IMG/VR virus record: IMGVR_UViG_3300027963_000238
Coordinates: 1 to 29,970 of that record
DNA length: 29,970 nt
Reading direction: 5' to 3' (one strand)
Source: a virus
In this document: positions 1 to 23,668 of the stretch, one piece after another
Numbering within the stretch: position 1 is the stretch's first letter
Layout: every line of letters starts with the position of its first letter
Notes under the pieces: model-generated
Database searches by the model: none
Told to the model about the DNA's origin: nothing
Seen by the model: the letters and a program-made list of their open reading frames with translations, nothing else
Program-made: the position numbers and the translations under genes

Positions 1-3000
1 GGCAACTTAAATGTTACGGCTAATTATTTCAATGTATCTAATAATTTAATTGCTAACGGTAATGCAAATATAAGTGGTAACGCAAACGTTACCGGTAATG
101 TTAGCGCGAATAATTTTATAGCAGGCGGTAATATTACTGGTGCTAATTTAGTTAGTGCAAACTATTTCACTGGTACACTAACAACAAATGCTCAACCAAA
201 TGTTACTAGTCTTGGCACATTAAGCAATCTCTTTATTTTAGGTAATTTAGGTGTAGGTACTAATGTATCTACTACTGATGCTAGAGTTACTATTCTTGCT
301 GTAGGACAAACTAATGTTTATCCTGTTACAGGTAACAGTGTTGCAGCAGGCACTGATCTTCATGTAAGCGGCGGTAATGGCAATCTTACTAGAATAACAC
401 AAGATTCATTTGGATTAAACACTTATGTAGCGTTTACAGGTCGTGCTGCTGGAGGCACCGCTGCTGCACCTACACAGACTCTTGCAGGAGCTAATCTAAG
501 TCAATTTACTGGTCGTGGATTCTCTAATGGTTCATTAGAATTTGGTAATAATTCAACTGGTCTAATAGCTATTAAGGCTGCTGAAGATTTTACAGATACT
601 AGTCGTTCTACTAATGTAGTAATTTACACAACTTCAGTTGGAAATATTAATCCTACAGTAGCTGCTACTTTTGATGGTAATGGCAATTTAACTGTTACTG
701 GTAGTATTACTAGCACAGGTGGAAACGCTAATCTAGGTAATTCTATTAGTGCTAATTTTGTTAGTGTCAGTTCTAATACCGTTACTAATAATTTAAAAGT
801 TAATTTAGAATTCTCAGGTAATACTGCTAATTTTAGTGGAAATATAATTACTGCAAATGCTAACTTAGGTAATGTAGCGAATGCTAATTTCTTTAGTGGT
901 AACGGCGCGTATTTAACTGGTATTACTTTTGCAAATCTGACGGATGCTAATACTGCTAACTTAACTATTAATGAAATTTATTTACAAGGTGTTACTAATT
1001 TAGCAGTTAATCACACTGGTGCTACCGCTTATACATTTGATCAATATCCTGGAAGTAATCCAACATTATATGCAGTTGCCGGCACTACATTAGCATTTGA
1101 TTTAACTGCTGCCGGACATCCATTTCAAATTCAATATGCTAACGGCACAGACTACAACACTGGCTTATATCATGTAACTACTGCCGGTGTAGTAAGTACA
1201 GGAGCAAACGCTCAATCACAAACATCTGGCACACTGTACTTTAAGATACCCGGAGACCTTAATAGTAATTTAAAATATCAATGTTTTAACCATGTTGCGA
1301 TGAATGGTAATATTATCATACAAAATGCCAATATTGCTAATCTTTTATTAAATTTTACTGGTAATATTAATGCAAATTACTTTACTGGTAACGGTAGTTT
1401 ACTAACAGGCATCGGAAACGCAACTAATATTGTTAATGGTAACAGCAATGTGATTGTTACTGCTAACGGTAACGTTACTACTAGTGTAGCAGGAAATGCA
1501 AATGTACTAGTAGTAACAGGCACCGGCATAAACGTAGCAGGGTATTTAAATACAGGTAGTGGTGATATTACCACTACAGGTAATATAACCGGTGGCAATA
1601 TAATTGGCATAGTAGCAGCCGGAAGTAATGCGATTACTACTACAGGTAATATTACCGGTGGTAATATTATTGGAACAATAGCAGCCGGCTCAAATACTAT
1701 CACTACTACTGGCAATGCAAACGTTGGTAATCTAGGATTTGGATCGGGAGAAATTATTGGTACGGGTAATATTACCGGTGGTAATATCAGTGTTGGTAAC
1801 ATATCTACTACAGGCAATGCTAACGTAGGTAATCTCGGCTTTGGATCAGGTTCAATAACTGGTACAGGTAATATCACCGGTGGAAATATTATTGGTACTA
1901 TTGCTGCGGGTTCTAATACAATCACCACTACTGGCAATGCTAATGTTGGTAATTTAGGATTTGGCAGTGGAGTCGTTACTGGTACGGGTAATATTACCGG
2001 TGGCAACTTAATTGGTACCATCGCAGCTGGTTCAAATACTATTAGTACTACAGGTAATGCTAATCTAGGTAATATAGGATTTGGATCGGGAGAAATTACT
2101 GGTACAGGTAATGTCACTGCTGGCAACGTAATTGGTACAATTGCTGCAGGTTCTAATACTATTAGTACTACAGGTAACGCCAATGTTGGTAATTTAGGCT
2201 TTGGTAGTGGTGTTATTACTGGTACAGGTAATATCACTGGTGGCAATATTATTGGCACTATTGCAGCTGGCTCTAATACAATTAGCACTACTGGTAATGC
2301 TAATGTTGGTAATTTAGGCTTTGGTACTGGTTCAGTTACTGGTACAGGTAATATCACTGGTGGCAATATTATTGGCACTATTGCTGCCGGAAGTAATACA
2401 ATCACTACTACAGGTAATATCACCGGTGGTAATATAATTGGTAATGGTAGTCAGCTAACAGGTATAAATTTCTCTAACTTAGCTGATGCGATTACTGCTA
2501 ATTTAACTATTAATGAAGTTTATTTACAAGGTGTTACTAATTTAGCAGTTAATCACACCGGTGCCACCGCGTATACATTTGATCAATATCCTGGAAGTAA
2601 TCCATCTCTCTATGTAGTAGCAGGCACTACCTTAGCATTTGATTTAACTGCAGCCGGTCATCCATTCCAAATTCAATATGCAAATGGTACAGATTATAGC
2701 AATGGTCTATTCCATGTAACTACAACTGGAGTAGTAAGTACAGGAGCAAGTGCCCAATCACAAACATCAGGTACATTATATTGGAAAGTTCCTGGTGATA
2801 TCAGTGGTAATTTTAAATATCAATGCCAAAATCACACGGCAATGAACGGAAATATATTTGTTCAAGCAGCAAATATAGGTAATGTTCTTCTTAACTACAC
2901 TGGTAATTTATCAGCAGGTAATGCTAATTTAGGTAATGCTGTTGCTGCTAACTACTTTGTTGGAAATGGTTTCTATCTAACTGGTATTGACACTGCTGGT

Positions 3001-6000
3001 GTAGCGAACGGCAATTCTAATGTAAAAGTTTACAGCAATGCCAATGTAGAAATTTCATCTAACGGTGTAGCAAATGTATTGACAATAACTGGATCGGCAG
3101 TTGTTGCTTCTCAGAATGTATATGCTAATACTAACACAATACAAGCTAATATTATTGTAGGTAACACACTAACTGGTAACTTAAGTACTGCTGCACAACC
3201 AAATATAACAAGTGTTGGTAGTTTAACAACGTTGACAGTAACCGGCGACATTGTTGGTAATACAGCTAACTTTAATGGTGCTGTATATTCTAATGCTAAT
3301 AGTATCTCTGCTCCAACGCAATTGGCAACTAAGTCTTATGTTGACAATCAAGTTTCTACTGGTATTCAAGTTCATCCAGCAGTAATTGTCTCTACAACTA
3401 CTAATTTAACAGCAACTTATACTCCAGGTGGTACTAATCCAACAGTAACTAGTATTGTCACTGGCAATACACTGATATCAACAGGACACAATTTAAATAC
3501 TACGGATATGTTTGTGCCTACAGTGTCAAGTAGTGGTCTTACATCAGGTACTCCTTATTTCGTATATTCTGTCGCTAATGCAAACGCATTTACCCTAACT
3601 GCTTCTTGGGCCGGTCCCCAGTTAACCGGTCTTACAAATGGTACAGGACTGAGTATTACAAGCAATGCTAATCCAGGTGTTGGAGCTAAACTTACTAATT
3701 CGGGTACACAGGCAGTCATAACAATTGATAATACTGCATTGGCATTGAACGCTAGAGTGCTAGTTCAATACCAATCTAATGCGGCATTAAATGGTGTTTA
3801 TTTTGTCAGTAACGTTGGGTCAGTCTCTACTAATTGGGAATTAACTAGAGCAACAGACGCAGATGAATACTTTCCACAAAGCAATGAAGGTATCGCGCAA
3901 GGAGCTTATTTCTTTGTACAAGATGGTGATACTCTAGCAGGAGGCTCTTATGTAGTTGCTACTACTGGAATAATCATAATTGGTACTACTGGTATATCAT
4001 TTTCTGAATTCAGTGCGGCAGTACCATACACTGGCGTCAGTCCGATTGTAGTAACCGGCCAACAAATTAGTTTAGCTAATACTACTGGGTCAGGGGATGT
4101 TGTTGTATTAGCGACTAGTCCTAATCTTACAACACCAAATATTGGAACCGCAACAGGTAATAGCCTAACACTAAGTGGTAATGGTTTAGTAAGTGCAGCT
4201 AATGTCACTGCTTCTGCAAACGTCACCGCTGGTAATTTAAATACCAATGGTCAAATAACATCAACCGGTACCGGTAATTTATCTGACGGTGGCGGACAGT
4301 TATATCTAAACGGCACCGGTAATAATAGAATTGACTTCAATACTAATGGAACCGGTGCGCCAACATTTACCACACGAAGTGCTGGAAGTAAAATTGTATT
4401 GTATCCACTCACCAACGGAACCAATACAGATTATGCAATAGGTATTAACAGTGGTACATTTTGGTCAAGTGTCCCTCAATACGATAATGCACTACAATTT
4501 AAATGGTATGGTGGTACAACAGAAGTAGCAAACTTGAGTGGTACAGGTAATTTTTCAGCAGCGGGTAACATCACCGGTAGTAACATAATTACTACTGGTC
4601 AACTAGTCTCATCAGTAGCCACCGGTACTGCTCCACTTGTAGTATCAAGTACAACTCAAGTACCAAATCTATTTGCTGCAACAGCTAACGTAGCTAAAAA
4701 TAGTAATGTTGCTTCTGCAACAACTAATATATCTTATCCTACGTTTGCTTATGCTAATATAACTGGTGATTATCCATTACAAAGTAATACAGCATTCTCA
4801 GCTAATTTTGCAAACGGTGCATTTATTTCTACTACGTTCGTTGGTAATGTTGTAGCAGATTCTGCTAATATTACTGGTACTGCAAATGTTGGTAACATCA
4901 CTGGTGCTAATTTAGTTAGTGCGAATTATGTCGCAGGTACACTAACAACAAATGCTCAACCAAACATTACATCAGTTGGGACCTTATCAAGTGTTACAGT
5001 CAGTGGTAATGCTAACGTAGGTAACTTGGACTTTGGATCAGGTTCAATAACTGGCACGGGAAATATCACTGCTGGCAATTTAATTGGTGCAATTTCAGCC
5101 GGTTCTAATCCAATCACCACTACAGGTAATGCTAACCTTGGTAATTTAGGATTTGGCAGTGGAGTGATTACTGGTACAGGTAATATTACCGGTGGTAATA
5201 TTATTGGCACAATTTCAGCCGGAAGCAATACTATTAGCACTACTGGAAATGCTAATCTAGGTAATATAGGTTTTGGCAGTGGAGTGATTACTGGTACAGG
5301 TAATATTACCGGTGGCAATATTATTGGCACAATTTCAGCCGGAAGCAATACAATTACCACTACCGGAAATGCTAATCTAGGTAATATAGGTTTTGGCAGT
5401 GGAGTGATTACTGGTACAGGTAATATTACCGGTGGCAATATAATTGGTACCATCGCAGCCGGAAGTAACACTATCACTACTACCGGAAATGCTAATCTAG
5501 GTAATATAGGTTTTGGCAGTGGAGTCGTTACTGGTACAGGTAATATCACTGGTGGCAACATAATTGGTACCATCGCAGCCGGAAGTAACACTATCACTAC
5601 TACAGGCAATGCAAACGTAGGTAACTTGGGCTTTGGTAGCGGTGTTATTACTGGCACAGGTAATATCACTGGTGGCAACATAATTGGTACCATCGCAGCC
5701 GGAAGTAACACTATCACTACTACAGGCAATGCAAACGTTGGTAATCTTGGCTTTGGATCAGGTTCAGTAACTGGTACAGGTAATATCACTGGTGGCAATA
5801 TAATTGGTACAATCGCGGCCGGAAGTAATACAATTAGTACTACTGGTAATGCAAACGTTGGTAATTTGGGCTTTGGTAGTGGGGTCGTTACTGGTACAGG
5901 TAATATCACTGGTGGCAATATAAACACCAGCGGACAATTAGTTTCCACAGTGGCAACTGGCACCGCTCCATTAGCGGTAAGTAGTAATACTGTCGTTCCT

Positions 6001-9000
6001 AACTTAAATGCAGCATTTGCCAACATTGCAAATTATGTTGCTGTTACTACAGTTTCAACTAATATTTCATATCCAACATTTGCATATGCAGATCTTACAG
6101 GTACTTATCCACTACAAAGCAATACAGCTATTTCAGCTAACTTGGCAAATGGTGCGTTTATTGCTACTACGTTTGTTGGTAATGTAGTAGGTAATCTAAC
6201 AGGGGCCCTATCAAATGGTAATAGTAACGTAAACATTCCTGCTGCAAACGGAAACGTTAATATTAGTGCTGTAGGTAATGCTAACATATTAGTAGTAACT
6301 GGTACTGGTGCCAATATTACTGGTACTGCTAACGTCACGGGCAATACGAACGTTGGCGGTAACGTAAACGTCACTTCTAACGTAATAGCAGGTAACGTTT
6401 ATGCTAACTCAGGTACGATCGGTGGTTCATTAGTAGCAGGTACGCTAACTACAGCAGCACAACCTAATATTACATCAGTTGGCGCACTAACTGGACTAAC
6501 AGTATCTAATGCTACGGGTGTCGTTAACTTTACTACGACCGCTAACGTAACATTGGGTGCAGTTGCTAATCTTAAGATATCCGGTGGTACATCAGGATAT
6601 GTCTTATCTACTGACGGGGCAAGCAATCTAAGTTGGGTAGCACAATCAGGTGGTAGTATAGCCTCTATATCTAATGGTACAAGTAATGTAAATATCCCTG
6701 CGGCAAATGGAAACGTTAATATTTCATCCGCAGGTAATGCCAACATAGCAGTTATTACTGGTACTGGTATGAATGTGGCAGGTACAATTAATGGTACCGG
6801 TAACATTACTGGTGCTAATCTAATTGCTGGTGCCGGCTCAGGTGGTAATATTACCGGTGCTAATTTAGTTAGTGCAAACTACTTCACAGGGACATTAACG
6901 ACAAATGCACAACCTAATATTACATCAGTTGGTACGCTTACAGGATTAACAAGCACCGGTACTGTAAACTTTACGGGTGCTAGTAATGTATCACTTGGTG
7001 CAGTAGGTAATATTAAAATTACCGGTGGCAGTGCTAGTCAATATTTACAAACTGATGGCGCCGGCAACTTAAGTTTTGCTACGATAAGTTCTACTAGTAT
7101 TTCTAACGGTAACAGTAATGTAACCATTCCTGCTGCGAACGGAAACGTTAATATTTCATCCGCAGGTAATGCCAACATAGCAGTTATTACTGGTACTGGT
7201 ATGAATGTGGCAGGTACCATTAATGCTACAGGTAATATCACTGGTGGTAATTTACTTGGACCACATGCTAACGGCAATTCAAACGTTAATATCCCTGCTG
7301 CAAATGGAAACGTTAATATAAGTGCTGTTGGTAATGCTAACATATTAGTTGTAACTGGTACTGGTGCTAATATTACTGGTACTGCAAATATTTCAGGCAA
7401 TGCTAACGTTGGTAATTTAGGCTTTGGTAGTGGTGTCGTTACTGGTACAGGTAATATCACTGGTGGTAATATCATAGGTATTATTGCTGCAGGTTCAAAC
7501 ACTATAACAACTACAGGTAACATTACAGGTGGCAATTTACTTGGATCACATGCTAACGGCAATTCAAATGTTAATATCCCTGCTGCAAATGGAAACGTTA
7601 ATATAAGTGCTGTTGGTAATGCTAACATATTAGTTGTAACTGGTACTGGTGCTAATATTACTGGTACTGCAAATATTTCAGGCAATGCTAACGTTGGTAA
7701 CTTGGGCTTTGGATCAGGTCAAATTATTGGTACAGGTAATATCACTGGTGGTAATATCATAGGTATCATCGCCGCAGGTTCAAACACTATAACAACTACA
7801 GGTAACATTACTGGTGGCAATTTACTTGGATCACATGCCAATGGCAATTCAAATGTAAACATCCCTGCGGCAAATGGAAACGTTAATATTTCATCCGCAG
7901 GTAATGCTAACATTGTAGTTGTAACTGGTACTGGTATGAATGTGGCAGGTACAATTAATGCTACGGGTAATATCACTGGTGGCAATTTACTTGGACCACT
8001 GGCTAACGGCAATTCAAACGTTAATATCCCTACTGCAAACGGAAACGTTAATATAAGTGCTGTTGGTAATGCTAACATTGTAGTTGTAACTGGCACTGGT
8101 ATGAATGTGGCAGGTACAATTAATGCTACGGGTAATATCACTGGTGGTAATATAGTTACTGGTGGTGGTGCTGGTGGAAGTATGACTGGCGCTAACTTAA
8201 TTAGTGCAAACTACTTCACAGGTACTCTAACTACAGCAGCACAACCTAATATTACATCAGTTGGTACACTCACTGGGTTGACCAGTGGCGGTATTGTTAA
8301 CTTTACTACTGCAAGTAATGTGTCTCTAGGTGCAAACGGTAACGTTAAAATTACTGGTGGTACAAATGGTCAAGTTCTTACAACAGATGGTGCAGGTAAC
8401 TTAAGCTTTACTACAGTCTCAGGAGGTGGTGGCGCCGCGATTTCTAATGGCACCAGCTACGCTAATATAACCGCTTCAGGTGGTAATATTGTGTTGGCTG
8501 TTGCAAGTACTATTAGAGCCAATGTTACTTCTACTGGTCTTGATGTAACTGGCAATATTACTAGTGGCAATGCTAATATTACCGGTCAATTCATCTCTAC
8601 ACTAGCAACAGGTACTGCTCCGTTTGTAATAACAAGCACAACTCAAGTAGCTAACCTAAGCGTAGCTACTGCTGGTACTGCTGTTACCGTAACTGGTGCA
8701 GCACAAAGTAATATCACTAGTGTTGGTACTCTAAGTTCGTTGGGAGTTTCAGGTACGGTTACAGCTAGCCAATTTGTTTCAAACGTAGCCACTGGTACTG
8801 CACCAATAACTGTAAGTAGTACAACTCGTGTTGCTAACTTAAACGTAGCATATGCTAATGTAAGTGATTTTGGAGCTGTTACTAATCAAACAACAGGTAC
8901 TTATTATCCTGTTTTTGTAAGTAGCAATGCAACAGGAAACTATGCTCTTGCGGCTAACGGTGTGTTTAGTGCAAATATTGCCAACGGTGCATTTATTTCT

Positions 9001-9543
9001 AATTCATTCGTTGCCGGCGCCGGCTCAGGTGGTAATATTACCGGGGCTAACACAGTAAGTGCCAATACCTTCACTGCAGGTAGCGGCTCAGGTGGTAATA
9101 TTACCGGTGCTAACACGATAAGTGCAAACAGTTTCATTGGTGCAACAAGTATTGACTTTACTACTACTAGCAATGTGGCATTAGGCGCAAATGCAACCGT
9201 TACGGATGGTGCTTCAAATACCTATGCTATTGGTTATAAAGCGGTACCGCAAAGCACTACAGCATCGGGCAATTTTGTTTTAAGTGATAGTGCTAAGCAT
9301 TTATATGTTTCAGCAGGTGTTACTGTACCTGCTAATGCTTCTGTAGCATTTGCTATAGGAACCGTAGTCACGGTCTTGAATTCTAGTGCTAGCAGCATAA
9401 CTGTTGCACAAGGCTCAGGTGTGACGTTGAGACAAACTGGAACTGCCAATACTGGTAATAGAACGCTTTCTGGATATGGAATGTGTTCATGTATTAAAGT
9501 TGCCTCCGACACGTGGTATATTTCAGGAACTGGATTGACATAA
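1..9543 (+). CDS. Giant repetitive tail-fibre protein, 5' end outside window
   Basis: Frame 1 is open from base 1 to the TAA at 9541, at least 3180 residues, so the gene starts upstream; the ATG at 1300 is internal. The protein is Gly/Asn/Thr/Ala-rich low-complexity sequence typical of long aquatic phage fibres, with recurring AQPNITSVGTL segments. It contains two cupredoxin-like domains (residues about 320-440 and 835-955), blocks of 40-residue repeats ending TGNITGGNIIG (codons within 1561-2440 and 5041-5930), 95-residue repeats (7267-8120), and a TKSYVD-type segment followed by a non-repetitive domain with the motif ELTRATDADEY (3320-4000). The last 100 residues (TDGASNTYAIGYKAV to the end) are non-repetitive and look like a tip domain. 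Expected role: receptor-binding or baseplate-attached fibre. Fibre assignment is by composition and repeats; exact gene equivalence is unknown. Confidence 0.85.
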   Translation, partial: GNLNVTANYFNVSNNLIANGNANISGNANVTGNVSANNFIAGGNITGANLVSANYFTGTLTTNAQPNVTSLGTLSNLFILGNLGVGTNVSTTDARVTILAVGQTNVYPVTGNSVAAGTDLHVSGGNGNLTRITQDSFGLNTYVAFTGRAAGGTAAAPTQTLAGANLSQFTGRGFSNGSLEFGNNSTGLIAIKAAEDFTDTSRSTNVVIYTTSVGNINPTVAATFDGNGNLTVTGSITSTGGNANLGNSISANFVSVSSNTVTNNLKVNLEFSGNTANFSGNIITANANLGNVANANFFSGNGAYLTGITFANLTDANTANLTINEIYLQGVTNLAVNHTGATAYTFDQYPGSNPTLYAVAGTTLAFDLTAAGHPFQIQYANGTDYNTGLYHVTTAGVVSTGANAQSQTSGTLYFKIPGDLNSNLKYQCFNHVAMNGNIIIQNANIANLLLNFTGNINANYFTGNGSLLTGIGNATNIVNGNSNVIVTANGNVTTSVAGNANVLVVTGTGINVAGYLNTGSGDITTTGNITGGNIIGIVAAGSNAITTTGNITGGNIIGTIAAGSNTITTTGNANVGNLGFGSGEIIGTGNITGGNISVGNISTTGNANVGNLGFGSGSITGTGNITGGNIIGTIAAGSNTITTTGNANVGNLGFGSGVVTGTGNITGGNLIGTIAAGSNTISTTGNANLGNIGFGSGEITGTGNVTAGNVIGTIAAGSNTISTTGNANVGNLGFGSGVITGTGNITGGNIIGTIAAGSNTISTTGNANVGNLGFGTGSVTGTGNITGGNIIGTIAAGSNTITTTGNITGGNIIGNGSQLTGINFSNLADAITANLTINEVYLQGVTNLAVNHTGATAYTFDQYPGSNPSLYVVAGTTLAFDLTAAGHPFQIQYANGTDYSNGLFHVTTTGVVSTGASAQSQTSGTLYWKVPGDISGNFKYQCQNHTAMNGNIFVQAANIGNVLLNYTGNLSAGNANLGNAVAANYFVGNGFYLTGIDTAGVANGNSNVKVYSNANVEISSNGVANVLTITGSAVVASQNVYANTNTIQANIIVGNTLTGNLSTAAQPNITSVGSLTTLTVTGDIVGNTANFNGAVYSNANSISAPTQLATKSYVDNQVSTGIQVHPAVIVSTTTNLTATYTPGGTNPTVTSIVTGNTLISTGHNLNTTDMFVPTVSSSGLTSGTPYFVYSVANANAFTLTASWAGPQLTGLTNGTGLSITSNANPGVGAKLTNSGTQAVITIDNTALALNARVLVQYQSNAALNGVYFVSNVGSVSTNWELTRATDADEYFPQSNEGIAQGAYFFVQDGDTLAGGSYVVATTGIIIIGTTGISFSEFSAAVPYTGVSPIVVTGQQISLANTTGSGDVVVLATSPNLTTPNIGTATGNSLTLSGNGLVSAANVTASANVTAGNLNTNGQITSTGTGNLSDGGGQLYLNGTGNNRIDFNTNGTGAPTFTTRSAGSKIVLYPLTNGTNTDYAIGINSGTFWSSVPQYDNALQFKWYGGTTEVANLSGTGNFSAAGNITGSNIITTGQLVSSVATGTAPLVVSSTTQVPNLFAATANVAKNSNVASATTNISYPTFAYANITGDYPLQSNTAFSANFANGAFISTTFVGNVVADSANITGTANVGNITGANLVSANYVAGTLTTNAQPNITSVGTLSSVTVSGNANVGNLDFGSGSITGTGNITAGNLIGAISAGSNPITTTGNANLGNLGFGSGVITGTGNITGGNIIGTISAGSNTISTTGNANLGNIGFGSGVITGTGNITGGNIIGTISAGSNTITTTGNANLGNIGFGSGVITGTGNITGGNIIGTIAAGSNTITTTGNANLGNIGFGSGVVTGTGNITGGNIIGTIAAGSNTITTTGNANVGNLGFGSGVITGTGNITGGNIIGTIAAGSNTITTTGNANVGNLGFGSGSVTGTGNITGGNIIGTIAAGSNTISTTGNANVGNLGFGSGVVTGTGNITGGNINTSGQLVSTVATGTAPLAVSSNTVVPNLNAAFANIANYVAVTTVSTNISYPTFAYADLTGTYPLQSNTAISANLANGAFIATTFVGNVVGNLTGALSNGNSNVNIPAANGNVNISAVGNANILVVTGTGANITGTANVTGNTNVGGNVNVTSNVIAGNVYANSGTIGGSLVAGTLTTAAQPNITSVGALTGLTVSNATGVVNFTTTANVTLGAVANLKISGGTSGYVLSTDGASNLSWVAQSGGSIASISNGTSNVNIPAANGNVNISSAGNANIAVITGTGMNVAGTINGTGNITGANLIAGAGSGGNITGANLVSANYFTGTLTTNAQPNITSVGTLTGLTSTGTVNFTGASNVSLGAVGNIKITGGSASQYLQTDGAGNLSFATISSTSISNGNSNVTIPAANGNVNISSAGNANIAVITGTGMNVAGTINATGNITGGNLLGPHANGNSNVNIPAANGNVNISAVGNANILVVTGTGANITGTANISGNANVGNLGFGSGVVTGTGNITGGNIIGIIAAGSNTITTTGNITGGNLLGSHANGNSNVNIPAANGNVNISAVGNANILVVTGTGANITGTANISGNANVGNLGFGSGQIIGTGNITGGNIIGIIAAGSNTITTTGNITGGNLLGSHANGNSNVNIPAANGNVNISSAGNANIVVVTGTGMNVAGTINATGNITGGNLLGPLANGNSNVNIPTANGNVNISAVGNANIVVVTGTGMNVAGTINATGNITGGNIVTGGGAGGSMTGANLISANYFTGTLTTAAQPNITSVGTLTGLTSGGIVNFTTASNVSLGANGNVKITGGTNGQVLTTDGAGNLSFTTVSGGGGAAISNGTSYANITASGGNIVLAVASTIRANVTSTGLDVTGNITSGNANITGQFISTLATGTAPFVITSTTQVANLSVATAGTAVTVTGAAQSNITSVGTLSSLGVSGTVTASQFVSNVATGTAPITVSSTTRVANLNVAYANVSDFGAVTNQTTGTYYPVFVSSNATGNYALAANGVFSANIANGAFISNSFVAGAGSGGNITGANTVSANTFTAGSGSGGNITGANTISANSFIGATSIDFTTTSNVALGANATVTDGASNTYAIGYKAVPQSTTASGNFVLSDSAKHLYVSAGVTVPANASVAFAIGTVVTVLNSSASSITVAQGSGVTLRQTGTANTGNRTLSGYGMCSCIKVASDTWYISGTGLT
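961..1320 (+). other. Cupredoxin-like domain, copy 1, within tail fibre
   Basis: Within the fibre frame, AFDLTAAGHPFQIQY is followed about 55 residues later by YQCFNHVAM. The potential type-1 copper ligands are His373 (codon 1117), Cys428 (1282), His431 (1291) and Met434 (1300). The spacing C-x2-H-x2-M is that of amicyanin. Copper binding is inferred from the ligand pattern only. Confidence 0.6.
1855..2440 (+). repeat. 120-bp (40-residue) in-frame tandem repeats, block 1
   Basis: Near-identical segments recur every 120 bp (for example at 1861, 1981, 2101, 2221 and 2341), each encoding TGTGNITGGNIIG, an AAGSNT segment and GNANVGNLGFGSG. Degenerate copies extend upstream to about 1560. Copies differ mainly at synonymous positions. 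Confidence 0.9.
2500..2862 (+). other. Cupredoxin-like domain, copy 2, within tail fibre
   Basis: Near-duplicate of the 961-1320 domain. Ligand candidates are His887 (codon 2659), Cys942 (2824), His945 (2833) and Met948 (2842), again C-x2-H-x2-M. Differences from copy 1 are scattered while the four ligands are kept, which suggests the site is under selection. Confidence 0.6.
5041..5930 (+). repeat. 120-bp (40-residue) in-frame tandem repeats, block 2
   Basis: Same unit as block 1, in register at 5041, 5161, 5281, 5401, 5521, 5641, 5761 and 5881. Some adjacent units are almost identical at DNA level, indicating recent duplication or gene conversion. Confidence 0.9.
7267..8125 (+). repeat. 285-bp (95-residue) in-frame repeats, block 3
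   Basis: A longer unit beginning ANGNSNVNIPAANGNVNIS recurs at 7267, 7552 and 7837 with a strict 285-bp step, then in shortened form near 8000. It combines the NVNIPAANGNVNIS module with the NANVGNLGFGSG module of blocks 1 and 2. Confidence 0.85.
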
Positions 9544-10838: not shown

Positions 10839-12494
10839 ATGAAAATATCAGTTATTAAACGCTCTGGCGTTAAAGAGTCCCTTACATTGGAAAAATGGCA
10901 GTCACAAATAGCAAAAATATGTCAGGGGATAGCTGATGTTAGTCAATCAATGATAGAAATAAAAGCCCAACCTCACTTTTATGATGGTATCACTACTAGA
11001 GAAATTGACCAAATTACACTTAGGGCAGTGGTAGACCTTATTGATGTAGAAAGCAATCCTGAATTAGGTCATACTAATTATCAGTATGTAGCAGGTAAGC
11101 AGAGATTAAGTATGCTTAGGAAAGATGTATATGGTACATATATACCACCCAGTCTATATAGTATCGTAAAAAGAAATGTTGAAACCGGTCTTTACACCTC
11201 AGAATTGTTAGAATGGTATACCGAAGAAGATTGGAACAAAATGGAATCTTTTATTGATCATGGTAAGGATGAGCAATATAGCTGTGCTGCTATTGAACAG
11301 ATGATTGAAAAGTATTTGGTACGTAATCGTAGTACCAAAGAAATTTACGAAACACCACAAGTTCGTTATATCGTTGCTGCTGCTACTATTTTTCATAAGG
11401 AAGAACCACAGTCAGCAAGAATGCGTTATATAAAGGAATATTACAATGCGGCTTCAGATGGTTTATTTACTCTCGCTACTCCTGTTCTTGCTGGGCTTGG
11501 AACTCCCACTAAGCAGTTCAGTAGCTGTGTACTCATACGCAGTGATGATGACCTTGACTCCATTTTTGCTAGTGGAGAAATGATGGCCAAGTATGCTAGC
11601 AAACGTGCTGGCATTGGATTAGAGATTGGTAGACTACGCCCATTGGGTAGTCCAATTAGGGGAGGAGAAATCATGCATACCGGCATGATCCCGTTTTTAA
11701 AGAAATGGTTTGGGGATCTTAGATCCTGTTCACAAGGAGGGATTAGAAATGCGTCAGCTACTGTGTTCTATCCGATCTGGCATCACCAATTTGATGACCT
11801 TATTGTGCTCAAAAATAATCAAGGAACCGAAGAAACCCGAGTCAGACATATGGACTATGGTGTCGTACTCTCGGCATTCTTTTGGCGTAGGTTTAAGAAC
11901 AAAGAGAATATTACGTTCTTCGACCCGAACCAAGTACCAGACCTCTACGAAGCCTTCTACAAAAATACCGAACTATTTGAAAAACTCTATGTAAAATATG
12001 AAGAACACACCGGTCTTCGTAAAAAAACCATGAGTGCCGAAGAAGTATTCAAGAGTGGCATCTTAAAAGAACGAACAGATACAGGGCGTATCTACCTGGT
12101 GTTCATTGACAACGTAATGAAGCAGGGTTCATTTGATCCTGAGTATCATACAATTTACCAGAGTAATTTGTGTTGCGTCACCGGTGACACTCAAGTTGTA
12201 TTCCAACATGAGAACGGAAATATTGAACAAATGTCTATGTCAAGTGCGGTTGAAAGATTTGAGTTGGGTAATTTGACCAACTCAAAAATTAAAAGTTTTA
12301 AGAATGGTGAAGTTTCTTGGGAAAATATTGATGCCGCAATCAAAACAAAGACGGTTACTGAACTATATGAAATTGAAGATGAGAAGGGGAATGTATTGAA
12401 ATGTACCGGTGACCACCGTGTTTTTACTAAGAATCGAGGATATGTAAGAGCAGATGAATTAGTAGAAACTGACGAGTTATGTGTTGAAATTTGA
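10839..12494 (+). CDS. nrdA: Ribonucleotide reductase large subunit, N-terminal part fused to N-intein
   Basis: 551 residues: 445 residues of class Ia NrdA (N-extein) followed by a 106-residue N-terminal intein half. NrdA reduces ribonucleoside diphosphates to deoxyribonucleotides with NrdB. Visible are the N-terminal ATP-cone-like region (MKISVIKRSGVKE), the first redox-active Cys (SSCVLIRSDDD, Cys230, E. coli C225 equivalent) and the active-site NLC ending at Cys445 (E. coli C439, the thiyl radical site). The next residue, encoded at 12174, is the first Cys of the intein. The frame stops at 12492, so the gene cannot make a full enzyme alone; the rest is in the next gene. Start ATG has a weak AGG upstream. 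Functional only if trans-splicing occurs. Confidence 0.95.
   Translation: MKISVIKRSGVKESLTLEKWQSQIAKICQGIADVSQSMIEIKAQPHFYDGITTREIDQITLRAVVDLIDVESNPELGHTNYQYVAGKQRLSMLRKDVYGTYIPPSLYSIVKRNVETGLYTSELLEWYTEEDWNKMESFIDHGKDEQYSCAAIEQMIEKYLVRNRSTKEIYETPQVRYIVAAATIFHKEEPQSARMRYIKEYYNAASDGLFTLATPVLAGLGTPTKQFSSCVLIRSDDDLDSIFASGEMMAKYASKRAGIGLEIGRLRPLGSPIRGGEIMHTGMIPFLKKWFGDLRSCSQGGIRNASATVFYPIWHHQFDDLIVLKNNQGTEETRVRHMDYGVVLSAFFWRRFKNKENITFFDPNQVPDLYEAFYKNTELFEKLYVKYEEHTGLRKKTMSAEEVFKSGILKERTDTGRIYLVFIDNVMKQGSFDPEYHTIYQSNLCCVTGDTQVVFQHENGNIEQMSMSSAVERFELGNLTNSKIKSFKNGEVSWENIDAAIKTKTVTELYEIEDEKGNVLKCTGDHRVFTKNRGYVRADELVETDELCVEI
12174..12491 (+). other. Split intein, N-terminal half (106 residues)
   Basis: Begins CVTGDTQV, the block A signature with nucleophilic Cys1, and contains CTGDHRVFTKNRGYVRADEL, the block B region with TxxH (here TGDH). 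The half ends at VETDELCVEI followed by a true stop. No endonuclease domain is present. The split lies after the N-terminal splicing domain, as in known naturally split phage inteins. Confidence 0.92.
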
Positions 12495-12531: not shown

Positions 12532-12633
12532 ATGATTAAAATTAGAAAAATAAACGTAGAACCAACCGACGTATACGATATATCTGTTCCCGAAACACAG
12601 TGCTTTTTTGCAGATAATATTCTTGTTCATAAC
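12532..12633 (+). other. Split intein, C-terminal half (34 residues)
   Basis: Short C-intein carrying the terminal His-Asn pair (VHN) needed for Asn cyclisation, immediately followed by the +1 Cys. Length is within the range known for phage split inteins. Confidence 0.92.
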
Positions 12634-13617
12634 TGTGAAATTCTACTTCCTACTAAATCATTCAAGCGTTTGGATGACAGTGATGGACGTGTGGCGCTCT
12701 GTACTCTCGGAAGTATTAACTGGGGTGCGTTCAGGCATCCTGAGGATATGCGCCGTGCTTGCCGTATACTTCAGCGTAGTCTTTGTAATATACTTGATTA
12801 TCAGGACTTCCTAAGTATTCAGTCTAAACTAAGCAATGATGAAATTCAACCATTGGGCATTGGTGTAACTAACTTGGCCTATTGGCATGCTAAACGCGGC
12901 GTTAAGTATGGTGATAAAGATGCTTTACAAGATGTTAAAAGTTGGATAGAGCATCAAGCATACTACTTGACTGAAGCCACTGTGGAGTTAGCTAAGGAGC
13001 GTGGTCCATGTTTAGATAGTCATAAGACAAGATATGGACAGGGTATCTTCCCTTGGGAACTCAGAGCCGATGCTGTCAATGACTTGGCAGAGTTTAGTCC
13101 AGAGCTTGATTGGGAAACTCTTAGAGAAAACATGATAAAATATGGAGTTCGTAACGCTACATTAATGGCTATAGCTCCAGTTGAATCTAGTTCAGTAGTT
13201 ATCAACAGTACTAATGGTATTGAAATGCCCATGAGTCTAATCTCTGTAAAAGAAAGCAAAGCTGGCTCTTTTGTTCAAGTAGTACCTGAGTATCAAAAAC
13301 TAAAAAACAAGTATCAGCTAATGTGGGATCAAAAGGATTGTGATGGATACCTTAAAACTGCTGCTGTATTGGCTGCTTATGTAGACCAAAGCATTAGCAC
13401 TAACACTTTCTACAATCCAGCATTTTTCCCTGATCGTAAAGTTCCTACAACGCTTATAGCCAAGAATCTAATGCAAGCACATATATGGGGCCTAAAAACT
13501 TTTTATTACTCATTAATTTCTAAAATGGGATCTAAAGAGGTTACTGAATCCGCACCTGCAATATTAGAACCCATAGATTTTGATGATGAAGAAGATTGTA
13601 TTGCCTGCAAATTATAA
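12532..13617 (+). CDS. nrdA: C-intein fused to ribonucleotide reductase large subunit C-terminal part
   Basis: 361 residues: a 34-residue C-intein then 327 residues of NrdA. The C-intein has block F (DVYDISVPETQCFFADNIL) and block G ending VHN, with Cys as the +1 extein residue (codon 12634). The C-extein begins CEILLPTK, supplying the catalytic Glu (E. coli E441), then VALCTLGSINWG with the second redox Cys (E. coli C462), the usual barrel region, and the C-terminal redox tail CIACKL. It has its own start with an AGGAAG site, 37 bases after the first half. Spliced NrdA would be 772 residues, normal for the family. Confidence 0.95.
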   Translation: MIKIRKINVEPTDVYDISVPETQCFFADNILVHNCEILLPTKSFKRLDDSDGRVALCTLGSINWGAFRHPEDMRRACRILQRSLCNILDYQDFLSIQSKLSNDEIQPLGIGVTNLAYWHAKRGVKYGDKDALQDVKSWIEHQAYYLTEATVELAKERGPCLDSHKTRYGQGIFPWELRADAVNDLAEFSPELDWETLRENMIKYGVRNATLMAIAPVESSSVVINSTNGIEMPMSLISVKESKAGSFVQVVPEYQKLKNKYQLMWDQKDCDGYLKTAAVLAAYVDQSISTNTFYNPAFFPDRKVPTTLIAKNLMQAHIWGLKTFYYSLISKMGSKEVTESAPAILEPIDFDDEEDCIACKL

Positions 13618-15902: not shown

Positions 15903-16190
15903 ATGTTTTCAATAATAGGTAGAGGAGTTAGTAGATTAGGTGATATTAATTCTGCCAAGGGTAGAATACTTAGGGGAGCTAAATCAGTTTTTGTCAGCGG
16001 ATTACCTGCAGGACTGCATATTAGCCCTGTTACTCCACATTTACCATTTAATGGTCCACACAAAGCTTCTTTTACTGTAACAGGTAGTCCAACAGTTTTC
16101 TGTGAGTATGCTCCACTCTTAAGAGTGGGTTCATACACTAATTGCGGGCATCCTATCGTACAGGGTAGTTTAACTGTTAGGTGTCCATGA
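15903..16190 (+). CDS. PAAR-type spike-tip protein
   Basis: 95 residues, Gly/Pro-rich with repeated short beta segments: KSVFVSGLPAGLHISPVTPH, ASFTVTGSPTVFCEYAPLLR, then GSYTNCGHPIVQGSLTV. The TVTGSPTVF and GHPIVQGS motifs and the scattered His/Cys (metal-binding candidates) match PAAR proteins that sharpen the central spike of contractile tails (T4 gp5.4). It is followed by a large probable tail gene whose ATG overlaps its TGA, supporting a baseplate role. An SD-like GGGGTGA precedes the start. Confidence 0.82.
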   Translation: MFSIIGRGVSRLGDINSAKGRILRGAKSVFVSGLPAGLHISPVTPHLPFNGPHKASFTVTGSPTVFCEYAPLLRVGSYTNCGHPIVQGSLTVRCP

Positions 16191-18877
16191 GTAACTATGC
16201 TTCACAAACTCCGTTAGGGGTTAATGTTTTAGGTTCACTATTACAAAACACAGGGTTTACTATAAACCCATTAGTATTACAATACATAGGTGTTTCTAAA
16301 AATAATACCAATTATACACCCGGTAAACTTATAACAGGCACATGTTTAAATAATTTAACCAACGCTATTAATGCAGCTTATGGTTTAGTAACCGCTGTTA
16401 TACCTGCATTATCACCGGGTGTGTATAACAGTTTAATATCTATTGGTTCAGATACAATACCTTGTTTGGGTAATTCTAAACCAAGTACATATGATTGGAC
16501 CGGGCCGGCAAATACAGGATATTCAACTGCGGGTAATACTAATACTGGACAAGCAGCCACTTGGAATCCTTATAACACCTCTAATGCTAATAAAGCAGTA
16601 ACACAATGGGGATTTTTAAGATTGCCTGCATTTCAAGCTTGGAATGAATATAATTGGAATGGTATACCACTTGCTGATACACCAGATTATAATGATTTTA
16701 CTGCTTCTATGCAGGTCGCAGCGGGGTATGTAAGTTCTTATAATACTTCGCTATACTCTGTTGCACAATCTAATACTTATTTGAAAGGCATTTATAGCAA
16801 TATGAATGACTTAATAAGTTCAGATGTAACTGGTGTAAATTTAGCTACCAATGCATTTGGTCAAGATTTAATCACATTAGGTAGAGCAATTAATTTACAA
16901 AAAATAGCACTATTTGGATTACCATCAGTACTATTACAAACTATAGTAGCCAATAATAGTTTAACACAAAGCCTTAGTTTAGCTTTGCTATCTAGTGGAT
17001 TAACCGAAAATGAAATTACTAATATTATACTTGATAATGGCTCGGTAACTACTAAGGAACAAGAACAAAAGTTATATGGTTCATTTTTAGTTATAGTAGG
17101 TAGAGATTTACAAGAAATATTAATACCATTAAATTGCAAAACCGTTGGATTAGAATCACTAGCAGATTTACTTAATATAAAAAAATTATTTCCAAACAGC
17201 TATACTTCAATGACTGTTCCTGTGTATAACACTAGTGCAGGGCCCACTAATAGTAAAACGTATTATCCAATATTTGATAATCAAAGCGTAAATGGCAGAT
17301 TGTCTAATCCTACTGTTAAAAATCAACTAGGTGTTATAAACCCAATAGGTGCACCCATTACTTTACCAAGTAGCGGCACATTTCAACTTCCTCAACCCGG
17401 CTTTGGAGCTTTTCTGATTGGAATAGTACCCGATGATATAGCTATATCTACGGGTGCATTTTCTGTTTCTATGCAACAGATTAATAATATAGCAGGAGTT
17501 GATATAGAAAAATTTGCACAGGTAGTTTTTTCTATTGAAACTACCAAAGGGTTAAATTTGGTTAACGGAACTGATGTACCTGTTAATACTGAATTAGCCA
17601 CCGCCGCATTTAATATTCTTGCTCAAGGCACCGGGCCATCAGGGTCATATACAATGTCTGATTTTTTTGGTGCAATGTCAGGTCTTCCATATTATTGGCA
17701 AGAAATATATAATAATATTATAGATATTCAAACTGATAATTTAAAAACAATTTATAACAGTTTATATGCTTTAGTGTCAATTGTACCAGACTATAATATA
17801 GATATTGAAGTGCAAGCATTGATAGAGTTAGCTAATAATGAAATAGAAAAAATATTATCAAAAAATCAATTAAAGGCTGCAAACCTAAATAAAATTTACA
17901 ATTTAGTAGGAACTCAATTAGCTAATGAACAAGAAGCTAGATATAATGCAATTTATCCAGTGCCTAGTCCTACTAGAGACCCTAAAATTAACCCTTATCC
18001 TAGTACCATTGTTAATTTTGTTAACTCTATATCTGAATTTGCACAAAGCACTGCTCCAAATATGGAAGCACAAACACTAGAGGCAATTGCGGACTTATCA
18101 CTAGTTGGTGGACAAAGTATTATAGGATTAATGCGACAAGAAAGAAATCAGGCAAAACTTCAGCTAGCTGGAATAACATTAGATAATGAAATTTCTGGAG
18201 AATTAGATCCCAAATTAGCACAGATTTTATTAGCCAACGGTACCGTTGCAACGGGTGTTAAAGGAATAGCTGTAAATGGGGTAAACTGTAATCCTGATAA
18301 TCCTACGACTATTTTCACTGCACCAGCATGTCTAGTTAATGTTACAGATACTAATCAACTTATTTCACCAAATCCATATGGATATATAGATCCAAATAGT
18401 CAAACTTTCTTAACTACTCGTAGTTCAACTGAAATCGGGCAACAGTCTCCTATTTCAGAAATATTAGCAGCCCCATTATATGGGTCATGTTCTTTGGGTC
18501 CTGAAGACAACGGAACCGGCCCTGCACTATGTTCACCTGGAACAGGGCCAACAATAGGTAGTCCGATACAACTTAATTCTGTTATCAACCCATTCCAAAC
18601 AGGCGTAAGTTTATTAAATAATATACCTCAGCCATTAAACTGCACCCCTATTGTTACTGTAAAAGGAGGAGCTAGGGTAGCGACAGGAACAGGAAATCCA
18701 ATAGACGATGGGAAATCAAAGACTTTGGGTAGTTTAGGTGGCTCACCTGATACTAATTTGGTTCCAATTAACATAAATAGTACGTACACATCAAGTACAT
18801 TAACACCCACTTCATTTACCATTTCCGAAGCCATAGAAGAAGTAGTATTGTGCAACTGTGATTGTTGGGTAGACTAG
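16187..18877 (+). CDS. Large probable virion (tail/baseplate) protein
   Basis: 896 residues from the ATG at 16187, which overlaps the PAAR stop (ATGA) with AGGTG upstream; a GTG two codons earlier is less likely. Asn/Ser/Thr/Ile-rich, with no clear membrane segment. The middle has helical stretches (ALIELANNEIEKILSKNQLK, residues about 544-564), and the C-terminal 250 residues are Gly/Pro/Thr-rich. The last 10 residues include LCNCDCWVD, a Cys cluster. Trp-rich aromatic patches occur near residues 100-165. Not recognised as a specific T4 gene; virion role is inferred from coupling to the PAAR gene, size and composition. Confidence 0.8.
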   Translation: MSNYASQTPLGVNVLGSLLQNTGFTINPLVLQYIGVSKNNTNYTPGKLITGTCLNNLTNAINAAYGLVTAVIPALSPGVYNSLISIGSDTIPCLGNSKPSTYDWTGPANTGYSTAGNTNTGQAATWNPYNTSNANKAVTQWGFLRLPAFQAWNEYNWNGIPLADTPDYNDFTASMQVAAGYVSSYNTSLYSVAQSNTYLKGIYSNMNDLISSDVTGVNLATNAFGQDLITLGRAINLQKIALFGLPSVLLQTIVANNSLTQSLSLALLSSGLTENEITNIILDNGSVTTKEQEQKLYGSFLVIVGRDLQEILIPLNCKTVGLESLADLLNIKKLFPNSYTSMTVPVYNTSAGPTNSKTYYPIFDNQSVNGRLSNPTVKNQLGVINPIGAPITLPSSGTFQLPQPGFGAFLIGIVPDDIAISTGAFSVSMQQINNIAGVDIEKFAQVVFSIETTKGLNLVNGTDVPVNTELATAAFNILAQGTGPSGSYTMSDFFGAMSGLPYYWQEIYNNIIDIQTDNLKTIYNSLYALVSIVPDYNIDIEVQALIELANNEIEKILSKNQLKAANLNKIYNLVGTQLANEQEARYNAIYPVPSPTRDPKINPYPSTIVNFVNSISEFAQSTAPNMEAQTLEAIADLSLVGGQSIIGLMRQERNQAKLQLAGITLDNEISGELDPKLAQILLANGTVATGVKGIAVNGVNCNPDNPTTIFTAPACLVNVTDTNQLISPNPYGYIDPNSQTFLTTRSSTEIGQQSPISEILAAPLYGSCSLGPEDNGTGPALCSPGTGPTIGSPIQLNSVINPFQTGVSLLNNIPQPLNCTPIVTVKGGARVATGTGNPIDDGKSKTLGSLGGSPDTNLVPININSTYTSSTLTPTSFTISEAIEEVVLCNCDCWVD

Positions 18878-20508: not shown

Positions 20509-20889
20509 ATGTCTTATTCAGCAGCCGTAGTAGATCATTATGAAAACCCACGCAATGTGGGGAAATTTGATGCCGATGATAATAATGTTGGAACTGGCCT
20601 AGTAGGGGCCCCTGCGTGTGGTGATGTCCTGCGCTTGCAAATTAAAGTAGACGAGGCAACAGGAGTAATTAAAGATGCCAAATTTAAAACGTATGGGTGC
20701 GGGTCAGCAATTGCTGCGTCAAGTCTTGTCACAGAGTGGATTAAAGGCAAAACCCTCGCCGAAGCCGAAACAATCAAAAACTCCGAAATTGCCCAAGAGT
20801 TAGCATTGCCCCCAGTAAAAATCCACTGTTCAATACTAGCAGAAGATGCTATAAAATCTGCCATTGAAAATTATAAATCTAAGCACTAA
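20509..20889 (+). CDS. iscU: Fe-S cluster assembly scaffold IscU
   Basis: 126 residues, full length. IscU holds nascent [2Fe-2S] clusters and hands them to apoproteins with HscA/HscB. All key residues are present: Cys37 and Asp39 (GAPACGDV), Cys64 (TYGCGSA), His106-Cys107 (KIHCSIL), plus the HscA-recognition motif LPPVK at 100-104. The intact LPPVK implies it can use the host chaperone; no iscS or iscA is seen nearby. It looks host-derived (auxiliary metabolic gene), near rubrerythrin and rubredoxin. Start ATG has GGAAAGGGG upstream. Its codons appear richer in G/C than neighbours, hinting at more recent transfer. Confidence 0.95.
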   Translation: MSYSAAVVDHYENPRNVGKFDADDNNVGTGLVGAPACGDVLRLQIKVDEATGVIKDAKFKTYGCGSAIAASSLVTEWIKGKTLAEAETIKNSEIAQELALPPVKIHCSILAEDAIKSAIENYKSKH

Positions 20890-21237: not shown

Positions 21238-21690
21238 ATGTCTATCACAATTAAAAACTTAGAGAGTGCTTTGGCTGGTGAAAGTCAAGCCCATGTTAAA
21301 TATCGCTATTTTGCGAAAATTGCCCGAGAAGAAGGGTTTGAAGATGTTGCACGACATTTTGAACATACCGCGGATCAAGAATTACTACATGCATGGGGCC
21401 ATTTAGAATTGCTTATTGGTAAGCCAAATACTAAAGAATGCCTAGAAAAAGCAATTGAAGGTGAAACTTATGAGTTTACTACAATGTATCCTAATTTCAG
21501 AGATGATGCTGTTCATGAAGGTAATGAAGTAGCTGAAAAAGAAATTCAGGGCCAAATTGAAGAAAGTCGTGAGCATGCCGAACAGTTTAAAGCGGTACTA
21601 GCTAAAGCAGAAAAACGTTTTGCAGCTTTAAAGCGTGTTGAACAACGACATGCCACTGCCTATCAAAAGATGTTAGAGGAGGTGCAATAA
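21238..21690 (+). CDS. Rubrerythrin (ferritin-like diiron domain only)
   Basis: 150 residues forming a four-helix ferritin-like diiron protein that reduces peroxide using electrons from rubredoxin. Ligand candidates: Glu15 (GESQAH), Glu48 and His51 (DQELLHAW), a Glu in EGETYEF (76-80) and the EESREH segment (108-113). The C-terminal rubredoxin domain of classical rubrerythrins is absent, but a separate rubredoxin gene begins on its last base (TAATG). AAAGGAG lies before the ATG. Probably protects infected cells or the phage RNR/IscU machinery from oxidants; that role is inferred. Confidence 0.93.
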   Translation: MSITIKNLESALAGESQAHVKYRYFAKIAREEGFEDVARHFEHTADQELLHAWGHLELLIGKPNTKECLEKAIEGETYEFTTMYPNFRDDAVHEGNEVAEKEIQGQIEESREHAEQFKAVLAKAEKRFAALKRVEQRHATAYQKMLEEVQ

Positions 21691-22242: not shown

Positions 22243-22425
22243 ATGAAAACAATGTATTTTGAAAATTTGGTTAACAAAGAAAAATATTCATGCAAGAATC
22301 CCAATGACATTAGGTTAATTGATGGCATTGAATATATGCGTGTGTTTAAATATGGTACTCAGCGAGAGTGTTTAGTTCGCAAGGACTCTCTCAAAAAAAT
22401 ATCAGAAAGTAAATTGCATCCTTAA
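22243..22425 (+). CDS. Small hypothetical protein, 60 residues
   Basis: MKTMYFENLVNKEKYSCKNP onward, ending RKDSLKKISESKLHP. ATG 22243 chosen for TTAGGAGA just upstream; an upstream in-frame TTG (22192) lies in the hairpin region. Beta-type, Lys-rich, soluble. Its last three codons, including the stop, lie inside the 5' acceptor/D region of tRNA-Arg(UCG), so tRNA processing would cut this mRNA. Function unknown. Confidence 0.7.
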   Translation: MKTMYFENLVNKEKYSCKNPNDIRLIDGIEYMRVFKYGTQRECLVRKDSLKKISESKLHP

Positions 22426-22492
22426 CTCAGTGGATTAGAGTGTTGGTCTTCGAAACCAAAGGTCGGGAGTTCGAATCTCTCAGGGTGCACCA
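22416..22492 (+). tRNA. tRNA-Arg(UCG)
   Basis: Acceptor GCATCCT/AGGGTGC, anticodon stem TTGGT/ACCAA with loop CTTCGAA (anticodon TCG), T-loop TTCGAAT, encoded CCA. Reads CGA. The first 10 bases overlap the end of the upstream CDS. Confidence 0.95.
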
Positions 22493-22591
22493 TACTATGG
22501 TGTAGATATATTTAGTATAATATAGCGTGTAGCATATAGATATTTCTAGCTGATTGTCATATTGTAAATAGCTAGTAAAAAGGAGTTTTTA

Positions 22592-23152
22592 ATGTCTGTT
22601 TTAGCACTGGATATATCGGGAACGCCCCGACAGTGGATTTCATATGATACAGCAATTCTTTACCATGCAACCAAAAGTGTCGCATGGACTATGGGTGAAG
22701 TTGTGGCTAAATATCGTGGTGGAATTCAACGCAACGGGAAACTAAGTTATATTGAAACTCAATCAATTATTGCTATCAAAGGACATGGATTTAATCCAAC
22801 TAAGCATAGTAAAGTAGCATTGGGCAATAGAACATTATTTGGTAGAGATAGACATATCTGTGCTTATTGCGGAGATTATTTTCCCAATGCTAATAGCCTA
22901 AGCCGAGACCATATTATACCTAAAAGCAAGGGCGGTGAAAATGTATGGATGAACGTAGTCACCGCATGTAAAGATTGCAATGCCATGAAAGGGTGTAAAA
23001 CTCTTAAAGAGGCTAGAATGGAATTACTATATGTGCCATATGTGCCAAATCATTTTGAAAATATGATCCTACAGAATAGAAATATTTTGGCTGATCAAAT
23101 GGATTATTTAAGAGCAGGGTTACCAAAACATAGTAGAATTTTATTGAGTTAG
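22592..23152 (+). CDS. HNH endonuclease
   Basis: 186 residues with a strong AAGGAG site. An N-terminal 80-residue region (ALDISGTPRQWISYDTAI to HGFNPTKHSKVALGNRTLF) precedes the HNH core: Cys90/Cys93 (CAYCG), Asp106-His107 (SRDHIIP), Asn121, and Cys126/Cys129 (CKDCN) with Lys133. The two Cys pairs form the structural zinc site. The whole protein resembles a proteobacterial chromosomal HNH family, including the C-terminal LLYVPYVPNHFENMILQNR, so it was likely taken from a host. Sits between tRNA genes, where free-standing homing nucleases often lie; a homing role is inference. Confidence 0.9.
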   Translation: MSVLALDISGTPRQWISYDTAILYHATKSVAWTMGEVVAKYRGGIQRNGKLSYIETQSIIAIKGHGFNPTKHSKVALGNRTLFGRDRHICAYCGDYFPNANSLSRDHIIPKSKGGENVWMNVVTACKDCNAMKGCKTLKEARMELLYVPYVPNHFENMILQNRNILADQMDYLRAGLPKHSRILLS

Positions 23153-23176
23153 TATATACTAGTTAAATATTAACAC

Positions 23177-23252: not shown

Positions 23253-23257
23253 ATCTA

Positions 23258-23331: not shown

Positions 23332-23354
23332 AATTACCAAGGAAAAAAGAAATA

Positions 23355-23592: not shown

Positions 23593-23668
<76 letters not shown>

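Follow-up and report, generated by a model that had tools for sequence, protein, structure and literature searches.

Duplicated cupredoxin-type domains with a candidate type 1 copper site in a repeat-rich, fibre-type phage protein

Cupredoxins are a classical protein family. Those with a type 1 copper site, among them amicyanin, rusticyanin, plastocyanin and pseudoazurin, are soluble electron carriers, and the ligand loop of amicyanin has the spacing C-x2-H-x2-M. Phage virions are known to carry beta-sandwich modules in the form of Ig-like decoration domains. Metal has also been proposed to occur in phage tail fibres, as iron at HxH motifs in T4 gp37 and in the alterophage R22Y (excerpted text of PMC11705849). 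Cupredoxin domains in virions are apparently undescribed in open papers. Among open-licence PMC papers, preprints aside, cupredoxin combined with tail fiber, with tail/baseplate or with marine phages returned no paper, and none of the listed cupredoxin and phage papers concerns a virion cupredoxin, as judged by title and start of abstract. Neither cupredoxin nor plastocyanin occurs in the excerpted text of PMC10966104. Among the phage features inspected beneath the matches reported below, none is annotated as a cupredoxin; the labels used are gp9, tail fibre, tail spike and hypothetical.

The two domains that we describe here, A and B, resemble the type 1 copper cupredoxins in fold, ligand set and ligand order. 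They differ from them in lying twice within a phage fibre, in falling below the curated family cut-offs and in that the metal of their candidate site is a predicted one. They lie in a window, by which we mean the whole stretch of viral DNA analysed (29,970 nucleotides of IMG/VR record IMGVR_UViG_3300027963_000238), that begins inside the frame of a very long ORF with 3180 codons in the record (Table 1). The frame is built of fibre-like repeats, including 120-nt tandem units, which domains A and B interrupt; further tandem repeats are found at 5050-5923 and 7226-8151, and the ORF continues for 2736 residues after A and 2222 after B. Part of the stretch 2890-5400 matches phrog_30390 (5.1e-21). 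The phrog_677 family, matched by domain A, is absent from the stretches 1-957, 2890-5400 and 5401-9540, and the 5' end of the gene lies outside the record. The first-pass annotation had placed the domains inside a tail fibre. The repeats agree with this, but the ORF lacks its 5' end, and the remainder of it is not identified as a fibre by any family model. The domains also reach slightly beyond the range first given for them, copy B running to about nt 2883.

Table 1. Positions of the two domains, their candidate ligands and the neighbouring repeats within the fibre-type ORF of the window.
Feature	Position (nt)	Strand	Details
Repeat-rich fibre-type ORF, very long	1..9543	+	Open at 5' end; both domains inside
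Cupredoxin-type domain A	958..1341	+	Residues 320-447; AlphaFold2, Foldseek, phrog_677 2.4e-23
His373, first candidate metal ligand, domain A (GHPF)	1117..1119	+	
Cys428-x2-His431-x2-Met434, ligand loop, domain A	1282..1302	+	
Tandem repeats between domains A and B	1566..2418	+	Units 66- to 120-nt
Linker 5' of domain B, copied along with the domain	2439..2499	+	Counterpart 897-957
Cupredoxin-type domain B	2500..2883	+	Residues 834-961; AlphaFold2, Foldseek, 84% identity to A
His887, first candidate metal ligand, domain B (GHPF)	2659..2661	+	
Cys942-x2-His945-x2-Met948, ligand loop, domain B	2824..2844	+	

Elsewhere in the window, NrdA is split over two plus-strand ORFs (10839-12494 and 12532-13617) with 37 nt between the halves. 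The facing ORF ends match the intein splicing domain PF14890 below its cut-off (residues 486-549, 9.4e-8; residues 3-34, 1.4e-4), and the junctions, ...NLC/CVTGDT... and ...NILVHN/CEILL, read as a split intein. An IscU/NifU-type iron-sulphur scaffold with three Cys motifs (20509-20889, +; PF01592, 3.7e-52), an unusual phage cargo, lies close to a rubrerythrin/ferritin-like protein (21238-21690, +; PF02915, 7.1e-18). Fifteen tRNA genes, all on the plus strand, occupy 22416-29748, and an HNH endonuclease ORF (22592-23152; PF14279, 7.9e-17) sits between tRNA-Arg and tRNA-Thr. Two long ORFs have no family match in PHROGs, Pfam or PADLOC: one of 898 residues at 16181-18877 (+), for which the threshold was E<=0.001, and one of 384 residues in the tRNA region at 24802-25956 (-), which a 219-residue ORF on the plus strand overlaps.

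Each domain carries an upstream His in a GHPF motif and, with its Cys 55 residues further on, a C-x2-H-x2-M loop. The first-pass annotation had noticed both elements in both copies, and the motif indeed occurs exactly twice in the 3180-residue frame. With no more than 4 Cys, 15 His and 9 Met in the frame, the loop would be expected by chance about 5e-5 times; this expectation, together with the family-wide conservation of the motif, rules out a chance occurrence. A further histidine, His72 (GLxHV), is conserved in the subfamily of the window, but we do not count it as a ligand because it is missing from three gp9-type examples.

Domains A and B are an intragenic duplicate under strong purifying selection, since they share 109 identical positions over 130 residues (84%) and have a dN/dS ratio of 0.10 (dS about 1.0, dN 0.10; 39 synonymous and 21 non-synonymous codon differences). 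The duplicated unit comprises the domain and about 60 nt of upstream linker (897-1196 against 2439-2738, 83%). In a tree of 64 rows A and B pair with support of 99/73, and the nearest other row is a 63%-identical domain at locus L010, on a 333-kb contig shared with L001. The contig of locus L037 has its own domain pair, which clusters together (99/99), and duplication has therefore happened at least twice. The copies had been described as diverging in sequence outside their ligands, which is not the case between A and B but holds across the phage family: between phages, in a 24-member alignment whose members are 33-84% identical to copy B, invariant columns number only 9, and these include the four ligands.

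Profile comparisons connect the family to copper proteins. A profile of a 64-member alignment, run against the PDB with hmmsearch, matched 47 sequences at E<=1 (best 0.005), all of them cupredoxin-fold as judged by name, and hhalign of the family to a plastocyanin-type alignment gave an E-value of 1.5e-5 at 80% probability. The Pfam family Copper-bind (PF00127) is matched at E<=0.1 by 42 of the 64 alignment members (best 4.3e-4), with domains A and B themselves showing no match and the curated cut-off not reached; the amicyanin NCBIfam equivalog TIGR02657 gave no family for either domain at E<=0.1. Because neither curated model is reached, we do not assign the domains to PF00127 or to the amicyanins and file them only under the cupredoxin fold. 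In the profile alignment the GHPF His falls over the His of rusticyanin (GHDF) and of plastocyanin (PHN), and the Cys, His and Met of the family fall over the ligand Cys, His and Met of the same two proteins, so that the candidate site has the type 1 copper ligand set at the right places. The amicyanin spacing claimed at first pass is borne out by 147 of 149 distinct full sites (from the best 80 of 312, 509 and 480 stretches in the scans described below), and the title of PDB entry 2vmj (engineered loop CTPHPFM) fits this spacing. Two other families were touched by these searches. DUF1942 matches the domain at 0.018-0.027, below its cut-off, which we take as chance or as a distant beta-sandwich. 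The At5g54830-like domain PF25489 matches 15 of 54 gp9-type members at E<=0.1 (best 5.2e-6), with none of 14 records above its cut-off, and is not among the matches of domain A.

Structure prediction with comparison to cupredoxins, the check suggested along with the first annotation, was run on both domains and gave confident models whose PDB matches are cupredoxins. The AlphaFold2 model of domain A (64-member alignment) has a pLDDT of 93.6 and a pTM of 0.87, and that of domain B (24-member alignment, partly overlapping that of A) a pLDDT of 89.6 and a pTM of 0.82. Foldseek found 64 PDB chains for A and 71 for B at E<=1e-3; among the 50 listed for each, 49 are cupredoxin-fold by title for A, the other being an unnamed chain of a respiratory supercomplex, and all are for B. 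Rusticyanin is the best match of both (1.8e-5 for A, 3.8e-6 for B) and amicyanin comes next, with moderate TM-scores of about 0.4-0.57 (by query length). VIA aligned A with nitrite reductase at Z 10.8 (2.5 Å over 114 residues) and B at Z 10.8 (2.4 Å over 107 residues), a score moderately above the Z 7-8 range that is common by the tool's own account. Both of these best VIA matches fall on nitrite reductase residues 154-312, which we take to be the enzyme's second domain, a cupredoxin domain that has no type 1 site itself. Because the best rows lie on such a site-less domain, the fold match alone is no proof of a copper site. In cupredoxins the first His lies just before a strand, and the Cys, His and Met are placed around the last hairpin. 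In the model of domain A, His54 directly precedes strand 56-59, strand 105-109 terminates in Cys109, and His112 and Met115 belong to the loop leading into strand 116-122, in the last hairpin as read from secondary structure only. This is the cupredoxin arrangement, and it speaks indirectly against the refuting case named with the first annotation, a fold in which the four residues are far apart. Taken with the profile searches and the ligand-for-ligand alignment, the two models and their Foldseek and VIA matches uphold the original description of the domains as cupredoxin-like and indicate that A and B, as predicted Greek-key beta-sandwiches, belong to the cupredoxin fold superfamily.

We then asked how the ligands fare across relatives in IMG/VR. 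A search with the ligand motif is circular, returning motif-bearing domains only, and for this reason three scans were seeded on ligand-free stretches: the N-terminal 52 residues, the stretch between the first His and the Cys, and the N-terminal stretch of the gp9 type. The best 80 of 312, 509 and 480 confirmed stretches, respectively, were analysed; because only these were returned, weaker and more degenerate members are under-sampled in the counts that follow. HP together with C-x2-H-x2-M is kept in 79 of 80 loci with the first seed and 78 of 80 with the second, where L204 instead has C-x2-H-x3-M and the frame of L197 stops short of the motif. With the gp9-type seed, 57 of 62 distinct stretches keep the motif; L342 and L343 have lost the site, L345 has C-x4-H-x2-M, L336 is another domain and L358 a partial one. 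Ligand loops of different length, here with the ligands retained, are also found among known cupredoxins. Pooled, the scans give 237 places, and at 228 of these the full set of four ligands is present. Once redundancy was removed over the span from first to last ligand, full sites numbered 149 among 153 distinct relatives. This count leaves out two partial domains (one from the A3 set, and L358), L336 and L337, in which the seed is not followed by this domain, and L340, whose seed is absent from the scanned frames. The remaining 9 places represent four distinct sequences, one ending early and three, from two lineages, having lost both His. In L095 (one contig) GHPF has become GLSM and the second His Arg, with Cys and Met kept; in the L342/L343 lineage (seven contigs) the first His has become Phe, the Cys Ala and the second His Val, with Met kept. 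Loss of only one His was not seen among the 153 distinct domains.

When a profile was searched more broadly, against 270 loci plus the window, 157 of 167 distinct matches had HCHM in the expected columns. The other ten are four partial matches short of the first His column, three ligand-less domains, L095, L197 and L002, the last belonging to a second domain type and aligned out of register. The ligand-less group, found with the same family profile in ORFs of about 2900-4600 codons, has all four ligand positions changed and keeps the scaffold motifs NNPxLxLYRGQTY and VPxDAPxxLYYQ. In the ligand-less domains L267, L268, L270 and L269 (reverse strand), which lie in ORFs of this size, an insert of roughly 50 residues separates the position of the first His from the last hairpin. 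The fold thus persists without the site, and the site is either kept whole or lost at several positions together, which matches what selection for metal binding would predict. Because the fold survives without a site that is retained or lost as a unit, this joint behaviour is good indirect evidence for metal binding at the putative site. No p-value is given, as the independent losses (L095 and the L342 lineage) are few.

The domain is typically carried by gp9-like connectors of the tail fibre, in cyanophages and in other phages of aquatic habitats. PHROG 677 ('baseplate wedge tail fiber connector') matches all 64 alignment members; domain A covers positions 305-410 of the 412 in its profile, and the window domains align only with its last 105-150 or so positions. 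The connector thus has its C-terminal domain in common with A and B, but there, in the examples inspected, the domain ends a protein of about 410-420 residues, whereas the window fibre is without the rest of the connector. More generally, the ORF reaches its stop codon within the locus for 152 of 162 distinct motif-bearing domains, and 113 of the 152 end no more than 30 residues before that stop. With tblastn, domain A matches 79 public phage records, each with Synechococcus, Prochlorococcus or cyanophage in its name, at 34-40% identity among the 50 listed. A gp9-type profile finds one to four domains in eight of nine named phage genomes and none in the ninth, S-SM2. P-SSM2 has four, in proteins annotated phage tail fiber-like, tail fiber and tail spike (two copies). 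The first-position His and C-x2-H-x2-M are present in 12 of the 13 named-phage domains, one having THQL in place of HPF, and the thirteenth, in P-GSP1, shows the motif. Structure matches in BFVD are mainly cyanophage fibre, connector and unnamed proteins, along with a few giant-virus proteins called beta-sandwich protein. Among uncultured viruses, four overlapping scans confirmed at least 505, 312, 509 and 480 stretches with the domain. A related second domain type, marked by HPLxF and YYxCxxHxxMG, is present in other tail-like proteins. It was seen at L033 2468, L126 265, L208 1675, L214 1516 and L002 4108, and in four of these five loci it shares its protein with the first type.

A scan of cellular genomes gave six loci, two of which (L170 and L173) look viral by eye. 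L171, L172 and the lipoprotein-like L174 are small secreted proteins, as is L274, a 134-residue secreted cupredoxin of a Prochlorococcus MAG that matches the family profile at 1.3e-14 and lies above the PF00127 cut-off (26.4 against 21.2 bits). All four share HPF and C-x2-H-x2/x4-M with the phage domains but are cellular, begin by eye with a signal peptide or lipoprotein start, and are single-domain or joined to DM13. Close cellular relatives are thus secreted cupredoxins. At 1e-4 the family profile finds only 4 of 121 genomes of the cyanobacterial family of L274, some of the hits perhaps being viral or stray MAG contigs. Direct capture of host plastocyanin is unsupported, the closest cellular match found being a different, small secreted cupredoxin. 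In L171 (5425-6474, Hydrogenedentota MAG) the fusion partner is a DM13 'electron transfer' domain (PF10517, 2.2e-16).

The reading that we favour, at a probability of roughly 0.6, is that the domain is a cupredoxin-type module of the adsorption apparatus, with an intact mononuclear His2-Cys-Met type 1 copper-like site, and is locked by its metal. It draws on the predicted fold, the ligand set, the joint retention and loss of the ligands, the C-terminal placement in relatives and the duplication. Free copper is almost absent from the cytoplasm in which phage proteins are assembled. The protein would fold there with its site empty or loosely filled, and the metal that binds, presumably copper, would be acquired outside the cytoplasm, after lysis or at the cell surface. 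By tying the last hairpin, with its Cys, His and Met, to the first His, the metal probably locks the domain, which would become rigid and stable. Rigidity and stabilisation would be the main benefit, felt where a fibre or connector, perhaps a homotrimer, bears load or holds a receptor. In the window phage, a module normally C-terminal in a gp9-like connector lies inside a long repeat fibre and has been duplicated.

Several findings count against a copper module: the window domains lack a PF00127 match, the Foldseek TM-scores are modest and the VIA Z is only moderately raised, the best VIA rows lie on a presumably site-less domain, and the ligand-less relatives show a fold independent of metal. 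Since assembly takes place where copper is almost absent, zinc or no metal at all must also be weighed. That the domain is a metal-free Ig-like decoration or spacer, with ligands that stay for structural reasons or through recent ancestry, is the alternative that fares best, although we think it unlikely. Like the Ig-like decoration domains, the module is a beta-sandwich inserted in several tail proteins, and the retained fold of ligand-less relatives, the copper-poor cytoplasm and the VIA matches all suit a spacer; unlike those domains it adds a conserved metal-type site. A spacer would leave unexplained why, at 33-84% identity, the few invariant columns (9) include every ligand and why no single-His loss occurs in the 153 distinct domains (best 80 of each scan). 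Moreover, domains without the site have lost several ligands at once, so the ligands are not imposed by the fold.

If the site is instead filled, it might serve in sensing, a Cu(I)/Cu(II) switch altering the fibre at the host surface and gating adsorption. Electron-transfer copper proteins use this ligand set and L171 is joined to an electron-transfer domain, but no redox partner or pathway is visible, and the range of tail proteins that carry the domain points to a general module more than to a dedicated sensor; we regard this role as distinctly improbable. It is more doubtful still that the fibre displays metal as bait for a host metal-uptake receptor: many of the hosts are marine cyanobacteria, but copper buried in a cupredoxin makes a poor receptor handle. 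A precedent for such a metal Trojan horse has been proposed for iron in phage tails (excerpted text of PMC11705849). There too a metal is proposed in a tail fibre, but the metal and the motif are different, and no two of the 15 His encoded in the recorded part of the gene are two residues apart, so that an HxH iron-binding fibre is ruled out for this part. The least probable alternative is another metal (zinc in the cytoplasm, or iron) in the same stabilising role, for although zinc rather than copper is on offer in the cytoplasm, His2-Cys-Met with a conserved Met is a copper-type set and zinc sites rarely use Met.

A metal-locked, cupredoxin-type module would place a complete, if candidate, copper-type site, on a fold known above all for copper, in the connectors and fibres of cyanophages and many uncultured viruses, where the discussion of tail metals has so far concerned iron and HxH. 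It also provides an annotation for a domain until now called gp9, tail fibre, tail spike or hypothetical, and the ligand-less versions are natural built-in controls. We tentatively raise the wider idea, on balance rather unlikely, that the virions of many aquatic phages are copper proteins, with blue-copper domains in their connectors and fibres and with copper acquired outside the cell and functional in adsorption, as a lock or as a redox- or metal-dependent trigger. If the fibre is a trimer and there are six fibres, simple arithmetic on that assumption suggests that the window phage could carry 36 coppers per virion. Were the wider idea true, copper availability would tune infection, and phage particles would constitute a pool of bound copper in surface water.
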